From Lutibacter sp. (GTDB taxonomy: Bacteria > Bacteroidota > Bacteroidia > Flavobacteriales > Flavobacteriaceae): a stretch of DNA of 46,483 nt. The stretch is from assembly GCA_028696945.1 (NCBI GenBank), contig JAQVGD010000005.1:1-46483 (forward strand), in the 5' to 3' direction. This document shows, piece by piece, positions 6,201-40,639 of the stretch. Under the pieces are notes generated by a model. The model was given only the letters and a program-made list of their open reading frames with translations, was not told the origin of the DNA and searched no databases. Each line of letters starts with the position of its first letter. Within the stretch, counting starts at the first letter, position 1. The position numbers and the translations under genes were made by a program.

Positions 6201-6469
6201 ACAGATGAAACGAGCATTTCAAATTTTGACACACAAAGAAATGATTAATGGCGAACAGCATCTGTACCAATAAAAAACAAAGATTAAACAGATGAATCGA
6301 GCATTTCAAATTTTGACATATAAAAGAATGATTAATGGCGAACAGCATCTGTACCAATAAAAAACAAAGATTAAACAGATGAAACGAGCCAGAACAAATT
6401 TTGATACACAGCAGAATGATTCATGGCGAACTGCATCTGTACCAATAAAAAATAAAGATTAAACAGATG
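6201..6469 (+). repeat. Array 1: three tandem ~87 bp ATG-bounded hairpin units ending at the lacI start codon
   Basis: Unit starts at ATG 6205, 6292, 6379; next ATG (6467) is the lacI start. Shared backbone ACAGATGAA...AATTTTGA...ATGATT(A/C)ATGGCGAAC(A/T)GCATCTGTACCAATAAAAAA. Confidence 0.95.
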
Positions 6470-7489
6470 AAATCAAGAATTACCCTTAAAAAGATTGCAA
6501 GAGAATTTGGCGTATCAATTTCTACGGTTTCAAAAGCGCTGAAAGACAGCCATGAAATTAGTGAGGAAACAAAGGGGAAAATTAAAGCCTTTGCCGATTA
6601 TTATAACTACAAGCCAAACAATCTGGCTTTGCAGCTTCGCAACCAAAAAACATCTGTTATTGGTGTTATTATCCCCGAAATTGTACATCATTTTTTTTCA
6701 ACGGTAATCAATGGCATTGAAAAATACGCTACAGAAAAAGGATACAACGTTATGATATGCCTTTCTAATGAATCTTACGAAAAAGAGGTTTCAAACATGA
6801 GCGTGTTGACCAATGGAAGCGTGGATGGATTGATTGTATCAATAGCTAGAGAAACCCAGCAAAATCAAGACTTCAAACATTTTGAAGCCATAATTAAGGA
6901 CGATTTTCCGCTGGTGCTATTCGACAGAATTAACGATGACATTGAATGTGATAAAGTGATTATTGATGATGTTGGCGGTGCTTTTAAAGCCACAAATCAT
7001 TTGATTGAAATAGGTTCAAAACGAATTGCATTGTTAACAACCCAAGATTTTATTACGGTTGGATCATTGAGAAAAAAAGGGTATATAAAGTCATTAAATA
7101 AAAATAAAATTTCTGTTGATGAAAGCCTAATTTATAAAATTGATGACAATTTGGATTTGTATGAACAAATAAAGGAAGTGTTTAAAGCTAAAAACCTGCC
7201 TGATGCCATTTTAGCGGTAAATGAAATATATGCGGCAATTGCTTTAAAAATTGCCAAGGAAAATGGTTTAAAAATACCCGAAGACATTGCCATTATTGGT
7301 TTTACCAGCGGTTTAATATCTGAATATACCGATCCACCATTAACTTGTATTGAACAACACGGATTTTTAATGGGCAAACAGGTTGCCGAATTATTAATTA
7401 ACAGAATTGAACATAAAGGTTCTGGAGAATTTCAAAAAACGGTTATTTCACCCGATTTAAAAATTAGGAAATCAACGCTTGATAATTGA
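6467..7489 (+). CDS. LacI/GalR-family transcriptional regulator
   Basis: N-terminal HTH 'ITLKKIAREFGVSISTVSKALKDSHEISEETKGKI' and periplasmic-binding-like C-terminal domain. Confidence 0.95.
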   Translation: MKSRITLKKIAREFGVSISTVSKALKDSHEISEETKGKIKAFADYYNYKPNNLALQLRNQKTSVIGVIIPEIVHHFFSTVINGIEKYATEKGYNVMICLSNESYEKEVSNMSVLTNGSVDGLIVSIARETQQNQDFKHFEAIIKDDFPLVLFDRINDDIECDKVIIDDVGGAFKATNHLIEIGSKRIALLTTQDFITVGSLRKKGYIKSLNKNKISVDESLIYKIDDNLDLYEQIKEVFKAKNLPDAILAVNEIYAAIALKIAKENGLKIPEDIAIIGFTSGLISEYTDPPLTCIEQHGFLMGKQVAELLINRIEHKGSGEFQKTVISPDLKIRKSTLDN

Positions 7490-7519: not shown

Positions 7520-7617
7520 AAACTTGAAACTTGAAACTCAAAACTCAAAACCTGAAACTCAAAACTTGAAACTCAAAACTTAAAACTTGAAACCTGAAAC
7601 CTGAAACTCATAACTCC
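7520..7617. repeat. In-phase heptanucleotide array (AAACTYR type, 14 heptads)
   Basis: AAACTTG AAACTTG AAACTCA AAACTCA AAACCTG AAACTCA AAACTTG AAACTCA AAACTTA AAACTTG AAACCTG AAACCTG AAACTCA TAACTCC. Confidence 0.9.
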
Positions 7618-7789: not shown

Positions 7790-9142
7790 ATGGAAAAACG
7801 GAAACTAAGTTTCTGGGATATCTGGAACATGAGTTTTGGCTTCCTTGGAATTCAAATGGGTTTTGCACTGCAAAATGCCAATGCCAGCAGAATATTGCAA
7901 AATTTCGGAGCCGATGTCCATGAGTTGTCATGGTTTTGGATTGTTGCACCTTTAACAGGTTTAATTGTTCAACCAATCATTGGTTATTACAGTGACAGAA
8001 CTTGGACCAAACTAGGCCGAAGACGCCCTTATTTTTTAGCGGGTGCATTAATGGCATCTGTCGGTTTGGTTTTAATGCCAAATGCCGATATGTTTATTGC
8101 CGTTATGCCTTCTCTTTGGGTTGGTGCCGGAATGCTGATGATTATGGATGCTTCATTTAACGTGGCCATGGAACCTTTTAGGGCTTTGGTTGCCGACATT
8201 TTGCCTTCTGATCAAAGAACGCTCGGATTTAGTGTACAAACCATATTAATTGGTATTGGCGCAGTAATAGGCTCTTGGTTGCCTTATGTGTTAACAAATT
8301 GGTTTGGTGTTTTAAATGAAGCCGCACCTGGCGAAGTGCCAACAAATTTAATACTATCATTTGTTATTGGTGCTTCAGTTTTAGTCATCAGTATTTTGAT
8401 TACTGTGTTTACTACCAAAGAATATTCGCCAGAAGAAATAGCGCAATTTCCAGAATCAAAGCTCGATGAAACTGGGATTGTAGAAAAATCGAGCTTGCTA
8501 AATATATTTTCCGATTTCAGAAAAATGCCGGCTACTATGAGACAACTAAGCTCAGTTCAGTTTTTCTCTTGGTTTGGTTTATTTGGTATGTGGGTATTTG
8601 CAACACCGGCAATTGCACATCATATTTACGGTTTGTCATTAGATGATACACACAGTCTTGCCTATAACATTGCTGGCGATTGGGTTGGTATTTTATTTGG
8701 CGTTTACAATGCGGTCTCAGCAGTTTTTGCCTTCTTTTTGCCAGCGATTGCCAAAAAAATAGGAAGAAGAAACACGCATGCCTTTTCACTGGTTGTTGGG
8801 GGAATTGGACTTATTTCGGTGTATTTTATGCCAAATGAAAATTGGTTGATTCTTTCTATGCTTGGTGTTGGTGTAGCTTGGGCAAGTATTTTAGCAATGC
8901 CTTATGCTATTCTGGCAGGATCAATTCCTCCTAAAAAAATGGGCGTTTATATGGGGATTTTTAATTTTTTTATTGTAATTCCTCAAATTATAAATGCTTT
9001 AATAGGCGGACCGATGGTAAAATATTTTTATGGCGGTGATGCTATTTATGCCTTGGTTGTTAGCGGAATTTCATTTTTAATTGCTGCTGCATTGGTATCA
9101 AGAGTTAAAGATGTTGATGATGTTGTATTGATAAAAAATTAG
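7790..9142 (+). CDS. MFS transporter (SLC45/maltose-sucrose type), probable oligosaccharide uptake
   Basis: About 12 TM segments; 'GYYSDRTWTKLGRRRPYFLAGAL' MFS loop motif; within a maltodextrin operon. Confidence 0.88.
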   Translation: MEKRKLSFWDIWNMSFGFLGIQMGFALQNANASRILQNFGADVHELSWFWIVAPLTGLIVQPIIGYYSDRTWTKLGRRRPYFLAGALMASVGLVLMPNADMFIAVMPSLWVGAGMLMIMDASFNVAMEPFRALVADILPSDQRTLGFSVQTILIGIGAVIGSWLPYVLTNWFGVLNEAAPGEVPTNLILSFVIGASVLVISILITVFTTKEYSPEEIAQFPESKLDETGIVEKSSLLNIFSDFRKMPATMRQLSSVQFFSWFGLFGMWVFATPAIAHHIYGLSLDDTHSLAYNIAGDWVGILFGVYNAVSAVFAFFLPAIAKKIGRRNTHAFSLVVGGIGLISVYFMPNENWLILSMLGVGVAWASILAMPYAILAGSIPPKKMGVYMGIFNFFIVIPQIINALIGGPMVKYFYGGDAIYALVVSGISFLIAAALVSRVKDVDDVVLIKN

Positions 9143-9515
9143 ATGAAATGAGCATATTAAATTTTGGTACACAAAGAAATGGTTAATAGCGAACTTGCCT
9201 ACCGTTAGGTAGGCAGCAACTGTTACCAACAAAAAAATAAAATATAAACAGATGAAACGAGCCATAACGAATTTTGATACACAGCAGAATGGTTAATGGC
9301 GAACTGCATCTGTACCAACAAAAAAATAAAATATAAACAGATGAAACGCCTACAACAAAATAATCTAATAGAAAAAGTAAGCTGCTAGGCGTTCCATTTG
9401 ACAAAAAAAGAATAAAAATTAAACAGATAAAACGAGCCATAACAAATTTTGATACACAGCAGAATGATTAATGGCGAACAGCAGCTGTACCAATAAAAAA
9501 ATAAAATATAAACAG
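9143..9515 (+). repeat. Array 2: four tandem ATG-bounded hairpin units filling the MFS-pgmB gap
   Basis: Unit starts at 9143, 9252, 9341, 9427 (ATA in the last); next ATG at 9516 is the pgmB start. The first unit carries a nested 20 bp palindrome; the third has a different hairpin. Confidence 0.92.
9196..9215. repeat. GC-rich short palindrome nested in repeat unit
   Basis: TGCCTACC-GTTA-GGTAGGCA, perfect 8 bp arms. Confidence 0.9.
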
Positions 9516-10172
9516 ATGAAAAAAGAACTCGCATTTATATTTGATTTAGATGGCGTAATTGTGGATACGGCAAAGTACCACTATTTGGCTTGGAGAAATT
9601 TGGCGAACGTTCTGGGTTTCGATTTTACCGAAGAACAAAATGAACTCTTAAAAGGCGTAAGCCGTGTTAAATCACTCGAAATTTTATTGTCCATCGGAAA
9701 AGTTAATTTATCCGAAGCAAAAAAACAAGAATTTTTACTTCAGAAAAATAAAGAATATTTGGAGTATGTCAATAAAATGACTTCCGAAGAAATTTTGCCC
9801 GGCGTGAATGATTTATTGAATTTTTTAGAGCTCAATGACATCAAATATGCCTTGGGTTCGGCCAGTAAAAACGCACCTTTAATTTTGGAGAAAGTCGGAC
9901 TTTTAAACAGATTTACCGCCATAGTTGATGGCAATGATGTTTCCAAGGCGAAACCCGATCCAGAAGTATTTTTAATCGGTGCCAAAAAATTAGAGATGAA
10001 ACCTGAAAATTGCGTGGTTGTAGAAGATGCCATTGCGGGAATACAGGCGGCAAATGCCGCAAAAATGATAAGTATAGGAATTGGAGATACCAATGTGTTG
10101 CATGAAGCTGATTATGTTTTTAAAGATTTGACAGCCATTACACCCGATTTTTTAAAAAATATAATGAATTAA
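9516..10172 (+). CDS. pgmB: Beta-phosphoglucomutase / HAD hydrolase
   Basis: 'FDLDGVIVDTAKYHYLAWRNLA' HAD motif, 'KPDPEVFLIGAKKLEMKPENCVVVEDAIAGIQAA'; adjacent to GH65. The ORF-track start (9471) extends into the repeat; ATG 9516 preferred. Confidence 0.92.
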   Translation: MKKELAFIFDLDGVIVDTAKYHYLAWRNLANVLGFDFTEEQNELLKGVSRVKSLEILLSIGKVNLSEAKKQEFLLQKNKEYLEYVNKMTSEEILPGVNDLLNFLELNDIKYALGSASKNAPLILEKVGLLNRFTAIVDGNDVSKAKPDPEVFLIGAKKLEMKPENCVVVEDAIAGIQAANAAKMISIGIGDTNVLHEADYVFKDLTAITPDFLKNIMN

Positions 10173-12682: not shown

Positions 12683-15061
12683 ATGAAATTATTAAAATTA
12701 TTGCTAATTTTTCTTATTGCAGGAAGTTCATTGTTAAATGCACAAAATGCAGACAGGAAATTTGTTTCCGTTAGCCAAAAAAATACAGTTGTTGAGGTTA
12801 AAACCAATGATGGTTCTTATCAAATAATACCCTTTTCAACCAAAATTGTGGAAACTTCATTTATTCCCAATGGCGAAGTTTACAATCCCAATTCGCATGC
12901 GGTGGTTTTGAATTCTGAAAATTTGGAATTTAACATAACTGAAAAAGAAAATTCAATTCAATTGAAAACAGACGGTGTTTCAGTTCAAATTACAAAAACA
13001 CCATTCCAGATTTCCTATTTTTATAAGAATAAACCTTTAATTTCTGAAAGAAAAGGCTACGTTAAAACCGAAGAATTTGAAATATTAGATTTCAATTTAA
13101 CAGCCGATGAAATTTTATATGGTGGTGGTGCCCGCGCTTTGGGAATGAACCGCAGGGGAAACAGATTGCAATTGTACAACCGAGCACATTATGGCTATGA
13201 AACACGTTCGGAATTGATGAATTTTACCATGCCTTTGGTATATTCTTCCAATTTATATGCAATTCATTTCGACAATGCGCCCATAGGTTATTTGGATTTA
13301 GACAGCAAAAAAGACAATTCTTTAGTTTATGAAACTATTTCAGGTAGAAAAACTTATCAGGTGGTTGCAGGTGATTCCTGGGAAGATTTAATTGAGCAAT
13401 ACACCAGTTTAACTGGAAAACAACCGATGATTCCGCGTTGGGCACTGGGAAATTTTTCAAGCCGATTTGGTTACCATTCCCAAAATGAAACGATAAATAC
13501 CATCGATCAATTTTTGAAAGATGAAATTCCTGTTGATGCTATTATTTTAGATTTATTTTGGTTTGGAAAAGAGATGAAAGGCACGATGGGAAATCTGGAA
13601 TTTTTGAAAGATTCATTCCCTAATCCAAAGAAAATGATTGCCGATTTAAAAGAAAAAGGTGTCAAAACCATTTTGATTACGGAACCTTTTATATTGACAA
13701 CCTCAGGAAAATGGGATGAAGCCGTTGAAAAGGATATTTTGGGAAAAACCAAAGAAGGAAAACCATACACTTACGATTTTTACTTTGGAAACACAGGAAT
13801 TATAGATATTTTTAAGCCTGAAGGAAAGGCTTGGTTTTGGGAAGTTTACAAGAAATTTAACGATTATGGTGTTGCCGGTTGGTGGGGAGATTTGGGCGAG
13901 CCAGAAGTGCATCCTTCCGATTTGCAGCATGCAACAGGTTCTGCCGATGAGGTTCACAATATTTACGGCCACAATTGGGCAAAACTCATTTTTGAAGGTT
14001 ATCAAAAAGAATATCCAAACCAGCGACCATTTATTTTGATGCGCGCCGGTTATTCCGGTTCCCAGCATTACGGCATGATTCCGTGGTCGGGAGACGTAAA
14101 CAGAAGTTGGGGTGGATTGCAGTCGCAACCCGAAATTGCTTTGCAAATGGGCATGCAGGGAATAGGCTATATGCATTCTGATTTGGGCGGATTTGCAGGA
14201 AATAATTTAGATGATGAATTGTACACGCGTTGGTTGCAATATGGTGTTTTTCAGCCTATTTATCGTCCGCACGCCCAGGAAGAAGTGCCTTCTGAACCCG
14301 TTTTTAGAGAGCCGAAAACAAAAGCATTGGCCAAGAAATCGATTGAATTGCGGTACAGTTTATTGCCATATAATTACACCTTGGTTTTTGAGAACAACCA
14401 AAAAGGAACGCCTTTAATGAGACCATTATTTTTTGAAGATTCGAATGTTTCCTCATTTATAAACGATAAAACCTATTTGTGGGGCGACAGTTTTTTGGTG
14501 AGTCCAGTGGTAAAACAAGGTATTTCTGAACAAGAAGTTTATTTTCCAGCAAACTCAAATTGGTACAATTTTTATACCGATGAAAAAGTTGGTGGCGGAC
14601 AAACAAAATTGATTTCCTTAAATGAAGAAAATATTCCTGTTTATGTTCGTGGTGGTGCTTTTATTCCCAGGATTCAACCCATACAAAATACAGGATTGTA
14701 CAATTTGAAATCATTCGATTTGCATTTTTATTTTGATGAATCCGTTAAAGCAAGCGAAGGACATTTGTACAATGATGATGGTGAAACGCCAAATGCTTTT
14801 GAAAAAGGTAAATATGAGATTTTGAATTTTGAAAGCAAATACGAAAACAATAAATTAGCTATTGAAATTGAATCAAAAATTGGTAAAAATTATCAATTTT
14901 CTAAAAAAATGATTAACTTACTGATTTATAATATTTCAAAAAGACCTAGAAAAGTGACAGGCAATGATTTTACCTGGGATGAAAATAATAAGACTTTATT
15001 AATTCCTGTTTTATTAAATAATCCTTCAGTAAAAAAGATAAAAATTAAATTAATTCATTAA
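12683..15061 (+). CDS. Glycoside hydrolase family 31 alpha-glucosidase, exported
   Basis: Signal peptide; 'PVDAIILDLFWFGKEMKGTMGNLEF', 'GVAGWWGDLGEPEVHP', 'WSGDVNRSWGGLQSQ'. Confidence 0.95.
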   Translation: MKLLKLLLIFLIAGSSLLNAQNADRKFVSVSQKNTVVEVKTNDGSYQIIPFSTKIVETSFIPNGEVYNPNSHAVVLNSENLEFNITEKENSIQLKTDGVSVQITKTPFQISYFYKNKPLISERKGYVKTEEFEILDFNLTADEILYGGGARALGMNRRGNRLQLYNRAHYGYETRSELMNFTMPLVYSSNLYAIHFDNAPIGYLDLDSKKDNSLVYETISGRKTYQVVAGDSWEDLIEQYTSLTGKQPMIPRWALGNFSSRFGYHSQNETINTIDQFLKDEIPVDAIILDLFWFGKEMKGTMGNLEFLKDSFPNPKKMIADLKEKGVKTILITEPFILTTSGKWDEAVEKDILGKTKEGKPYTYDFYFGNTGIIDIFKPEGKAWFWEVYKKFNDYGVAGWWGDLGEPEVHPSDLQHATGSADEVHNIYGHNWAKLIFEGYQKEYPNQRPFILMRAGYSGSQHYGMIPWSGDVNRSWGGLQSQPEIALQMGMQGIGYMHSDLGGFAGNNLDDELYTRWLQYGVFQPIYRPHAQEEVPSEPVFREPKTKALAKKSIELRYSLLPYNYTLVFENNQKGTPLMRPLFFEDSNVSSFINDKTYLWGDSFLVSPVVKQGISEQEVYFPANSNWYNFYTDEKVGGGQTKLISLNEENIPVYVRGGAFIPRIQPIQNTGLYNLKSFDLHFYFDESVKASEGHLYNDDGETPNAFEKGKYEILNFESKYENNKLAIEIESKIGKNYQFSKKMINLLIYNISKRPRKVTGNDFTWDENNKTLLIPVLLNNPSVKKIKIKLIH

Positions 15062-15237
15062 TGAATCGAGCATTACAAATTTTGACAGATAAAAGAATGA
15101 TTAATGGCGAACAGTAGCTGTACCAACAAAAAAATAAAAATTAAACAGATGAAACGAGCCATAACAAATTTTGATACACAGCAGAATGATTAATGGCGAA
15201 CTGCATCTGTACCAACAAAAAAATAAAAATTAAACAG
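15061..15237 (+). repeat. Array 3: two tandem ATG-bounded hairpin units filling the GH31-GH13 gap
   Basis: Units start at ATG 15061 (overlapping the GH31 stop as TAATG) and 15149; the next ATG (15238) starts the GH13 gene. Confidence 0.93.
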
Positions 15238-16908
15238 ATGAAAAAATATTTATTCATTCTATTATCGATTGTTTCAATAAGTTGTTCTCCTAAAAAACAA
15301 GATAAAATTTTGACAAAAAACAATACTGAAAAACCGTTTCTATGGGCAAGTGCAAACATTTATTTTTTACTGACAGACCGATTTAATAATGGTGATGTCT
15401 CAAATGATTTAAACTTCAGTAGAACTCGAGTTGCCGCTAAATTAAGAGGATTTGAAGGCGGAGATATTAAAGGAATTACTCAAAAAATTAAAGAGGGCTA
15501 TTTTACCAATTTAGGTATCAATGCGATTTGGTTAACACCAATTGTTGAGCAAATCCACGGTTCTGTTGATGAAGGTACAGGAATCACATTTGGTTATCAT
15601 GGGTACTGGACAAGAGATTGGACTTCACTAGATCCAAATTTTGGATCGGAAGAAGCGTTGAAAAATTTAGTTGAAGTTGCACATAAAAACGGAATTAGAA
15701 TTGTGTTAGATGCCGTAATTAATCATACCGGTCCTGTAACAAATGTAGATCCTGTTTGGCCTGAAGATTGGGTAAGAATTGGTCCGCAATGTGATTATCA
15801 AACCTACGAATCTACCACGGCTTGTACTTTGGTTAAAAACCTTCCAGATATTAAAACTGAAAGCGATGCAACTGTTGAAATCCCAGTGCAATTGGCCAAA
15901 AAATGGAAATCGGAAGGAAGATATGAGCAAGAAATGAAAGAATTGGATGAGTTTTTCATGAGAACTGGCTATCCGAGAGCCCCAAAATATTACATCATTA
16001 AATGGCTAACAGATTATATTGCCGAATTCGGAATTGATGGATACAGGGCTGATACCGTGAAGCATATGGAAGAAAGTGTGTGGGGAGATTTTAGAAATGA
16101 ATGTGATTATGCATTTAAATTGTGGAAGGAAAACAATCCAGAGAAAGTGTTGGATAACAATAACTTTTATTTGGTTGGTGAGGTTTATAATTATGGTATT
16201 TCCGGTGGACAAATTTTTGACTTTGGCGACAAGAAAGTCAATTATTTTAAAAATGGGTTTAACAGTTTGATCAATTTTGAATTCAAATGGAATGCTGCCC
16301 AACTTTCTTCTTATGAAGCCCTTTTTTCAAAATATGATTCTATCTTACAAAATGATTTAAAAGGATTTGGCGTTTTAAACTATATAAGTTCCCATGATGA
16401 CGGCGCGCCTTTCGACAAAGAAAGAACCAAATCTTTTGAATCTGCCACAAAATTATTATTATGTCCAGGTACTTCTCAAGTTTATTATGGCGATGAATCT
16501 GCCCGTTCATTAATTATTGAAGGTACCGAAGGTGATGCCACTTTGCGTTCCAATATGAATTGGAACGAAATTGCAAATAGGCTACAAACCAAAGAAATTT
16601 TAACGCATTGGCAAAAATTGGGATTGTTCAGAAATAACCATGTTGCTGTTGGCGCAGGAGTTCATAAAATGATTTCTGAAAATCCTTATGTTTTTCAAAG
16701 AACCTATTCAAAAGGAGATTTTAAGGATGTAGTGGTTGTAGGACTCGATTTAAATATAGGCGAAAAGAAACTGAATATAGGAACTGAATTTATGGAAGGC
16801 ACTGTTTTGGTTGATGCTTATTCCAATACCGAGGTTATTGTTAAAAACGGAATGGCGATTTTAAATACGCCATTCTCGATTGTTTTATTAGAAAAGAAAA
16901 ACCAATAA
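15238..16908 (+). CDS. GH13 alpha-amylase-family lipoprotein
   Basis: Lipoprotein signal (LLSIVSISCSPKK); 'VLDAVINHTGP', 'GIDGYRADTVKHME', 'LVGEVYNYG', 'YISSHDDGAP'. ORF-track start (15193) is inside the repeat; ATG 15238 preferred. Confidence 0.93.
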   Translation: MKKYLFILLSIVSISCSPKKQDKILTKNNTEKPFLWASANIYFLLTDRFNNGDVSNDLNFSRTRVAAKLRGFEGGDIKGITQKIKEGYFTNLGINAIWLTPIVEQIHGSVDEGTGITFGYHGYWTRDWTSLDPNFGSEEALKNLVEVAHKNGIRIVLDAVINHTGPVTNVDPVWPEDWVRIGPQCDYQTYESTTACTLVKNLPDIKTESDATVEIPVQLAKKWKSEGRYEQEMKELDEFFMRTGYPRAPKYYIIKWLTDYIAEFGIDGYRADTVKHMEESVWGDFRNECDYAFKLWKENNPEKVLDNNNFYLVGEVYNYGISGGQIFDFGDKKVNYFKNGFNSLINFEFKWNAAQLSSYEALFSKYDSILQNDLKGFGVLNYISSHDDGAPFDKERTKSFESATKLLLCPGTSQVYYGDESARSLIIEGTEGDATLRSNMNWNEIANRLQTKEILTHWQKLGLFRNNHVAVGAGVHKMISENPYVFQRTYSKGDFKDVVVVGLDLNIGEKKLNIGTEFMEGTVLVDAYSNTEVIVKNGMAILNTPFSIVLLEKKNQ

Positions 16909-37990: not shown

Positions 37991-38055
37991 AATAAATCTT
38001 ATTGAATTGTTTATTAGTATCTGGTATTGGATATCTCGTATTTCATTTTTACTTC

Positions 38056-38167
38056 TAATATCTAATATCTAATATCTCACTTCTAATATTTTACTTTTAA
38101 TATTTTACTTCTAATATCTAATATTTAATATCTAATATCCCACTTCTCACTTCTCACTTCCCACTTC
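38056..38167. repeat. In-phase heptanucleotide array (TAATATY / YCACTTC, 16 heptads)
   Basis: TAATATC x3, TCACTTC, TAATATT, TTACTTT, TAATATT, TTACTTC, TAATATC, TAATATT, TAATATC x2, CCACTTC, TCACTTC x2, CCACTTC; ends next to the tgt stop. Confidence 0.9.
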
Positions 38168-38168
38168 T

Positions 38169-39308
38169 CTACATTCTATTTTCCATTTGTTTTACCATCC
38201 TGTTTTTCCAAGGCGTAAAATTTCCGGCTAATATATGCTTTCTTGCTTCACGAACCAACCACAGATAAAAGCCTAAATTATGAATGGAAGCTATTTGTTT
38301 GCCGAGCAATTCCTTTGAAATAAATAAATGACGCAGGTATGCTTTTGAATATATTTTATCAACAAAAGTGATGTTCATATCATCAATAGGAGAAAAATCA
38401 TTTTCCCATTTTTTATTTTTGATGTTGATGATGCCATTGGCCGTAAATAACATTCCGTTACGTGCATTTCGAGTTGGCATAACGCAATCGAACATATCAA
38501 TTCCCAAGGCAATATTTTCCAAAATGTTTGCCGGTGTGCCAACGCCCATTAAGTAACGGGGTTTGTCTTCCGGCAAAATTGCGGTTACAATTTCAGTCAT
38601 CTCATACATTTCTTCTATAGGCTCCCCAACTGAAAGTCCGCCAATTGCATTTCCTTCAGCACCAACAGAAGCAATAAATTCGGCCGATTGTTTTCTTAAA
38701 TCTTTATAGGTGCTTCCTTGTACAATAGGGAAAAAAGCTTGGCTATAACCATATTTAAAAGGTGTTTTTTCCAAGTGCGTAATGCAACGATTTAGCCAAC
38801 GGTGTGTCATGTGCATGGATCGTTTTGCATAACTGTAATCGCAAGGATAAGGAGTGCATTCATCAAATGCCATGATGATATCCGCACCAATAGTGCGCTG
38901 AATTTCCATGACGTTTTCGGGAGTGAAAGTATGATAAGAACCATCTATGTGGCTTTTAAATTTCACGCCTTCTTCCTTAATTTTTCGGCTTTCCGACATG
39001 GAATATACCTGATAACCACCACTATCTGTTAAAATATTCCGATCCCAATTCATAAATTTATGCAAGCCACCAGCTTGTTCTAAAATGGTTGTTTGCGGAC
39101 GCAAATATAAATGATAGGTGTTTCCTAAAATAATATCTGGATTTATTTCGTCTTTTAATTCGCTTTGATGCACGCCTTTTACCGAACCAACGGTGCCGAC
39201 GGGCATAAAAATAGGTGTTTCAATTTCGCCGTGATCAGTGGTAATTATTCCAGCTCTTGCCTTGCTTTGAGGGTCTGTTGTTATTAATTTAAATTGCATA
39301 GTCGGCAA
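38169..39308 (-). CDS. tgt: tRNA-guanine transglycosylase
   Basis: 'FMPVGTVGSVKGVHQSEL', 'ILTDSGGYQVYSMS', 'GGLSVGEPIEEMYEMTE', 'FDCVMPTRNARNG'. Confidence 0.97.
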   Translation of the reverse strand: MPTMQFKLITTDPQSKARAGIITTDHGEIETPIFMPVGTVGSVKGVHQSELKDEINPDIILGNTYHLYLRPQTTILEQAGGLHKFMNWDRNILTDSGGYQVYSMSESRKIKEEGVKFKSHIDGSYHTFTPENVMEIQRTIGADIIMAFDECTPYPCDYSYAKRSMHMTHRWLNRCITHLEKTPFKYGYSQAFFPIVQGSTYKDLRKQSAEFIASVGAEGNAIGGLSVGEPIEEMYEMTEIVTAILPEDKPRYLMGVGTPANILENIALGIDMFDCVMPTRNARNGMLFTANGIINIKNKKWENDFSPIDDMNITFVDKIYSKAYLRHLFISKELLGKQIASIHNLGFYLWLVREARKHILAGNFTPWKNRMVKQMENRM

Positions 39309-40532: not shown

Positions 40533-40639
40533 ATGAAATGAGCAACGGTAAATGATTCAAATTGCGGCTCGATCTTTTGTGGACAGGCGGCCTGTCTGTA
40601 GGCAGACAAGTATAACCAATAAAAACAAATAATATTTAT
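40533..40639 (+). repeat. Diverged single copy of the ATG-bounded repeat, with nested GC-rich palindrome
   Basis: Starts ATGAAATGAGCA (as at 9143), has GTAGGCAGACAAGTATAACCAATAAAAACAAA (compare GTAGGCAGCAACTGTTACCAACAAAAAA in unit 9143), ends at the DUF502 start codon. Confidence 0.6.
40582..40607. repeat. Overlapping GC-rich hairpins GACAGGC-G-GCCTGTC and GTCTG-TAGG-CAGAC
   Basis: Perfect arms at 40582-40596 and 40594-40607; the two folds share bases so exclude each other. Confidence 0.8.

Follow-up and report, generated by a model that had tools for sequence, protein, structure and literature searches.

The units of about 88 bp that stand in tandem before a lacI-family regulator gene in the 46,483-nt stretch of Lutibacter sp. 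DNA analysed here (the window) are probably, at odds that we put roughly at 0.8, copies of a small non-autonomous mobile element of Lutibacter that inserts just before the sequence ATGA(A) and is then duplicated locally. The element would extend from its own ATGAAACG left end to a CAN right end, and its insertion immediately before ATGA(A), most often that of a gene start codon, would leave ATGAA on both sides. This reading draws on features that were observed directly, namely the phase of the units, clean empty sites, presence/absence differences between close species, local amplification and the complementarity of an internal hexamer to the right end.

The original prediction had described three head-to-tail units (87, 87 and 88 bp) ending at the lacI ATG at 6467, related arrays at 9143-9515 and 15061-15237 and a diverged fourth copy at 40533-40639, each said to end exactly at the ATGAAA of a downstream gene. 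Profile searches recovered the lacI units with nhmmer E values of 2e-22 to 7e-20, and both further arrays were borne out, ending exactly at the ATG of pgmB (9516) and of an amylase gene (15238). The observation holds at these three loci and is not supported at the fourth, which gave no match to the A, A' or B profiles with filters off and E <= 10, and which may at most be a decayed relic, since its ends alone (ATGAAATGAGC ... ATGAAA) resemble the family. The features of the window are as follows, a hyphen in motifs marking the junction between the element and its target.

6205-6291, plus strand: first type-A unit (87 bp) of the lacI array, starting ATGAAACGAGC and ending AAACAG; nhmmer E 4.1e-21
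6292-6378, plus strand: second type-A unit (87 bp) of the lacI array; nhmmer E 6.9e-20
6379-6466, plus strand: third type-A unit (88 bp) of the lacI array; nhmmer E 2.2e-22
6434-6439, plus strand: internal hexamer CATCTG (the putative guide), complementary to CAG-ATG at 6464-6469, from the sequence and a rule over 111 copies
6464-6469, plus strand: CAG-ATG junction, the last three bases of the element and the lacI start codon (6467-6469)
6467-7489, plus strand: lacI-family regulator gene (Pfam LacI, Peripla_BP)
9143-9251, plus strand: type-A unit that a palindrome lengthens to 109 bp; nhmmer E 4.2e-15
9197-9214, unstranded: palindrome GCCTACCGTTAGGTAGGC nested in the preceding unit, a second, separate repeat read from the sequence
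9252-9340, plus strand: type-A unit; nhmmer E 2.9e-23
9341-9426, plus strand: type-B module (ATGAAACGCCTAC...CATTTGAC...AAACAG); E 1.7e-19 with a module-B profile that includes this copy
9427-9515, plus strand: type-A unit whose first codon position reads ATA, not ATG; nhmmer E 6.9e-23
9516-10172, plus strand: HAD hydrolase gene, beta-phosphoglucomutase-like (pgmB), adjoining a GH65 gene; on its 3' side the array ends at the ATG of this gene
15061-15148, plus strand: type-A unit, also read from the sequence; nhmmer E 1.8e-20
15149-15237, plus strand: type-A unit; nhmmer E 3.2e-24
15204-15209, plus strand: internal hexamer CATCTG, pairing by sequence with CAG-ATG at 15235-15240
15238-16908, plus strand: alpha-amylase-family gene, with the 3' end of the array at its ATG
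40533-40639, plus strand: proposed fourth copy, without a profile match and outside the confirmed family

The array at 9143-9515 is a composite of three type-A units, the first with the nested palindrome, and one type-B module. Type B differs from type A in sequence and shares its architecture, and B modules lie between A units in many arrays. The unit at 9143-9251 abuts the stop codon (9140-9142) of an MFS sugar transporter gene, and the ATG of the unit at 15061-15148 overlaps the TAA stop (15059-15061) of a GH31 gene. The genes that follow the arrays, encoding a LacI-family regulator, a pgmB-like HAD hydrolase beside GH65 and an alpha-amylase, belong to a maltose/starch locus. Tandem Repeats Finder scored the three arrays at 451, 321 and 287, far above chance, and the hairpin attributed to the units was also found, as predicted folding potential, in type A. 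Rfam gave no gathering-score match in the window, and permissive searches returned chance-level hits only (E 0.8-2). The window also holds intergenic arrays of 7-bp repeats at 7520-7616 and 38051-38169 (AAACTTG/AAACTCA and TCTAATA types), which are unrelated to the ~88-bp family.

The source genome is a Lutibacter MAG of 310 contigs with an estimated contamination of 6.9%. Exact matches to a 27-bp core numbered 156 across the whole genome, against 0 for a reversed-pattern control, and the lacI array as query found 60 matching places. On 589 kb of fetched contigs the unit profile delimited 151 units in 56 intergenic tandem arrays of variable copy number, usually with 1-6 units per array and mostly 86-90 bp per unit. 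ATGAA abuts 52 of the 55 readable array ends in this first sample; the 3' boundaries of the 56 arrays comprise 49 with ATGAA, three with ATGAA one base out of register, one with ATAAA, two recombined tails and one contig end. At the other side, the first unit begins with ATGAA in 47/56 arrays and with ATAAA in 7/56. A second sample, chosen by the core pattern independently of the first lacI-array query, placed ATGAA at 18 of 19 new readable ends, and in other Lutibacter species nearly all units that could be read end at ATGA, mostly ahead of long ORFs.

With gene starts taken from ORF calls instead of annotations, so that the counts carry some error, 37 of the 47 classified ends in the first sample are gene starts and ten are ATGAA sites with a short ORF only. 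The proposed phasing to start codons thus stands in so far as insertion is exactly at the ATG, and it does not extend to these 10 of 47 ends without a recognisable gene. ATGAA sites away from arrays divide into 150 at starts, 289 intergenic and 2323 genic; relative to all intergenic ATGAA the preference for starts has an odds ratio of 7.1 (p 5e-9), and relative to sense-strand intergenic ATGAA one of 3.2 (p 0.001). The rule that holds almost without exception is the ATGAA sequence, and the target is ATGA(A) itself rather than a start codon, although gene starts are enriched. Random placement, or placement chiefly inside or downstream of genes, which would have told against the original prediction, was looked for and not found. 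Gene starts probably predominate because ATGAAA in an A-rich context is the commonest gene start here and because insertions inside genes would be lost. Four insertions (C92:10421, C79:6095, C134, which is L345, and C145, which is L348) share one ATGAAA that belongs to another dispersed repeat, with flanks that read GTAGAAAA or ...GGAGCTAAATGTTTGTAGAAAA on the left and ATGAAAAATTT on the right, or near it. In other species, right flanks of ATGAT (L046) and ATGAACTTC (ATGAAC; L052) reduce the minimum target to ATGA. The ATGAA itself may belong to the element, whose left end is ATGAAACG, instead of being duplicated from the target.

Comparison with orthologous loci that lack the repeat, a check proposed with the original prediction, yielded clean empty sites at nadK, coaE, pgmB and lacI, with insertion exactly at the ATG. 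At nadK, the source genome has four units between ...AAATATTTAAGG and ATGAAAATTGCT, where many relatives pass directly from ...TTTAAGG to ATGAAAATTGCT. At coaE, one or two units between TTTTTAATTCAAAA and ATGAAAATAAT distinguish the relatives that carry the element from those that lack it; here the stop of ybbR (TGA) and the start of coaE (ATGA) overlap, and neither is lost on insertion. The pgmB gene of relatives begins 0, -1 or a few nucleotides after the transporter stop, or after a single unit, compared with 373 bp in the window, where both neighbouring genes are nevertheless intact. The lacI gene of relatives starts ATGAA[A/G]CC behind an element-free leader, with one filled exception (L367). 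ATGA can be read as a stop (TGA) in one frame and as a start in another, so an overlapping upstream gene would keep its stop and the downstream gene its start. Insertion at ATGA lets a parasite enter tight operon gaps with the upstream stop and the downstream start unbroken.

Presence and absence of the element vary between close species, as in the pair G001/G005, which differs at nadK, and the elements therefore appear to move. The minimum number of presence/absence changes is 3 for coaE, 4 for nadK and 6 for pgmB on a tree of 15 genomes built from these three genes, in which several nodes are poorly supported. Such repeated changes indicate movement or repeated replacement; some of them could stem from loss, or from homologous replacement among strains, and not from insertions that happened several times. 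Single type-A' units, the type of other Lutibacter species, precede what seems to be the same 350-codon gene at L264, L274 and L275 (G032, G013 and G009); left flanks are identical in two of them, so some insertions are old and inherited.

Units of the same array resemble each other more than units of different arrays (mean identity 0.940 within arrays vs 0.894 between them), and 53 of 109 units find their closest copy among their array neighbours, where permutation predicts 2.9. These figures support growth of arrays by local tandem duplication after insertion. Head-to-tail multiplication would thus follow integration, and module B, which has the same end logic, would join some arrays. In G018, most copies are 91-100% alike. 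A G+C-rich palindrome of the GCCTGCC...GGCAGGC type is nested at the same unit position in several species, in one to three copies (window 9197-9214; L118 1355-1497; L111; L044), and looks like a second repeat that targets the first.

The internal hexamer, CATN'TG, is complementary to the element end together with the ATG (CAN-ATG), and its variable base is a Watson-Crick match in 107 of 111 copies, a count over distinct right ends that includes related copies. All four N pairs occur, the hexamer/tail classes being C/G (76), G/C (29), A/T (1) and T/A (1). Type A combines CATCTG with the end CAG-ATG, type A' CATGTG with CAC-ATG and module B CATTTG with CAA-ATG; module B apart, the A/T and T/A classes are represented by one copy each, the single-unit insertions L050 (CATATG with CAT-ATG) and L052 (CATTTG with CAA-ATG). 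Because both rare cases are insertions of one unit, the hexamer must there pair with the junction downstream of it. The independent evidence for pairing is the existence of the four classes. A consensus RNA fold over 24 diverse units gave almost nothing: what the genus conserves is the complementarity of hexamer and right end alone, and not the long type-A hairpin. Copies also decay in place without compensation (CAGCTG opposite CAG-ATG in 23/111; L251, with CATATG and CAC), a pattern more readily explained, it seems, if the constraint acts on the mobile form and not on the leader. Mobilisation would then be due to some factor that uses the pairing of hexamer and right end to define the end of the element. 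More tentatively, the family may be a new kind of element, in which the hexamer pairs with its own right end plus the target ATG and this nucleic-acid pairing guides insertion to ATGA starts, with RNA or single-strand DNA as the intermediate and with a so far undescribed enzyme. The four-class complementarity gives a specific prediction that can be addressed with compensatory mutants.

RAYT/IS200-IS605 (Y1_Tnp) transposases locate the ends of their elements by pairing between a single-strand guide and the cleavage site. A rival reading takes the units as REP-like sequences mobilised by such enzymes, for which ATGAA would be the cleavage-site motif and the hexamer would serve as the right-end guide. 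Y1_Tnp genes are present in the source genome and in most unit-rich relatives, and the units share with REP/RAYT and other IS200-IS605-derived repeats their small size, dispersal, hairpin formation and, possibly, single-strand recognition by internal complementarity. They differ in having ATGA on both sides and no link to Y1_Tnp that could be found: the fetched flanks of Y1_Tnp genes held no unit, and a Y1_Tnp match is absent from G018, G030 and G032, which carry 24, 15 and 17 unit matches. Being unlinked to units in the source genome and missing from several unit-bearing species, Y1_Tnp was rejected as the mobiliser, and spread of this kind is unlikely. Neither a mobilising enzyme nor an autonomous copy was noticed in the fetched regions. 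The units also recall MITEs, which are short, non-autonomous and dispersed, with the ATGAA on both sides resembling a target-site duplication, but they grow as tandem arrays, and neither terminal inverted repeats of a known IS nor a parent transposase was identified. At L102 (G000:C233), an ORF of >1000 aa encloses a Y1_Tnp-like stretch, with similar cases in G002, G014, G026 and G031; this long ORF looks by eye like a restriction-modification enzyme and contains internal TREHALL-type peptide repeats. At L106 (G000:C171:15048-18365), a Y1_Tnp-like gene adjoins ORFs judged by eye to be cas1- and cas2-like.

The units might instead be retained for the benefit of the host, as a 5'UTR module in which the hexamer hides the start codon, or in tandem pairs with the upstream junction, and in which the number of units sets expression. 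Translation in Bacteroidota depends little on Shine-Dalgarno sequences; native leaders of the source genome show an A peak at -13 to -10, and the element tail has the same feature. Its predicted score ranks at the 91st percentile among native leaders and at the 99th when set against all ATGs. The A-rich leader of the original prediction is therefore recognisable in the sequence as a 3' tail resembling a strong native leader, and upon insertion this tail would become the new leader of the downstream gene. The proposed function is another matter, since predicted start-codon accessibility is lower with the element, not higher: 0.31 for single and 0.28 for tandem units against 0.43 for control ATGAA starts, and 0.10 for single CATCTG copies. 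Such a fall is what a module that hides the start would produce, and the pairing does take in the start codon itself; the tandem-type unit folds at -20.1 kcal/mol (z -6.1), and units precede essential genes such as nadK and coaE. Against selection for a leader, orthologous genes of close relatives do without the element, the downstream genes have no evident common function, about a fifth of ends lie away from genes and the hexamer decays uncompensated. We consider a beneficial module improbable, and any regulatory influence on the downstream gene would be putative and perhaps incidental. The recurrent insertions at genes such as nadK and coaE form natural series, with between 0 and 4 units, in which an influence on Bacteroidota translation can be measured.

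The statement that a repeat phased to start codons is not explained by ordinary intergenic repeats was too strong, since MIRUs (mycobacterial interspersed repetitive units) are described in a 2025 review (PMC12548453) as seemingly mobile elements whose insertion points are start codons and whose internal ORF is coupled at -4 nt to the gene that follows. They are tandem units of 40-100 bp that do little harm to genes (PMC12548453, PMC2734929), and in Mycobacterium tuberculosis an array at rnc-fpg1 can end at the start codon where orthologues have few bases between the genes (PMC2734929). The Lutibacter units agree in size class, intergenic tandem arrangement, start-codon insertion and the intactness of their neighbours, and the short ORF opened by the unit ATG closes before the unit ends for 123 of 126. 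A strictly defined MIRU would be harmless through translational coupling of this ORF to the downstream gene by overlapping stop and start; however, none of 37 arrays that precede a gene has a unit ORF that overlaps the gene start at -4 nt or otherwise, and in 25 it ends >30 nt before, so the family is not classed as a MIRU. The reading frame and peptide of the unit also vary between subtypes; most unit ORFs are short (median 14 aa), and a conserved unit-encoded peptide was rejected. A strict MIRU is thus very improbable. The family has its own ends (ATGAAACG...CAN), a hexamer matching the right end, two module types and a host in a different phylum, and it is judged separate from MIRUs on the features given in their descriptions. 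TAACTGA heptamer repeats, for which a translational role has been suggested, occur before start codons in Beggiatoaceae, Cyanobacteria and some Bacteroidetes (PMC4679880). They likewise stand just before the starts of genes, essential ones included, but are 7 bp long and a few bases from the start, whereas the Lutibacter repeat is an insert of ~88 bp with defined ends and empty sites.

Contig ends of the MAG hold many of the arrays, as might be expected of an assembly artefact, yet the same phased units recur in independent genomes, including the single-contig G012 and G019; these independent assemblies refute the artefact. Simple tandem slippage of a native leader would not bring in the sequence foreign to the leader that the empty sites reveal, and artefact and slippage alike can practically be dismissed. 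The mobile element that inserts before ATGA(A) remains our preferred reading. MIRUs had pointed to this way into tight gene spacings in a single group of bacteria; its use by a distinct family of a second phylum, built differently inside, suggests convergent evolution and allows the mechanism to be tested by comparing the two.

In the open-licence papers searched, we found no description of the ~88-bp Lutibacter family. Among 298 genomes of the order, a strict pattern matched the source genome and one genome of another genus (G116) only, and at the sensitivity of that pattern the family is mostly confined to Lutibacter. Weak relatives of the family occur in a few genomes of other families.
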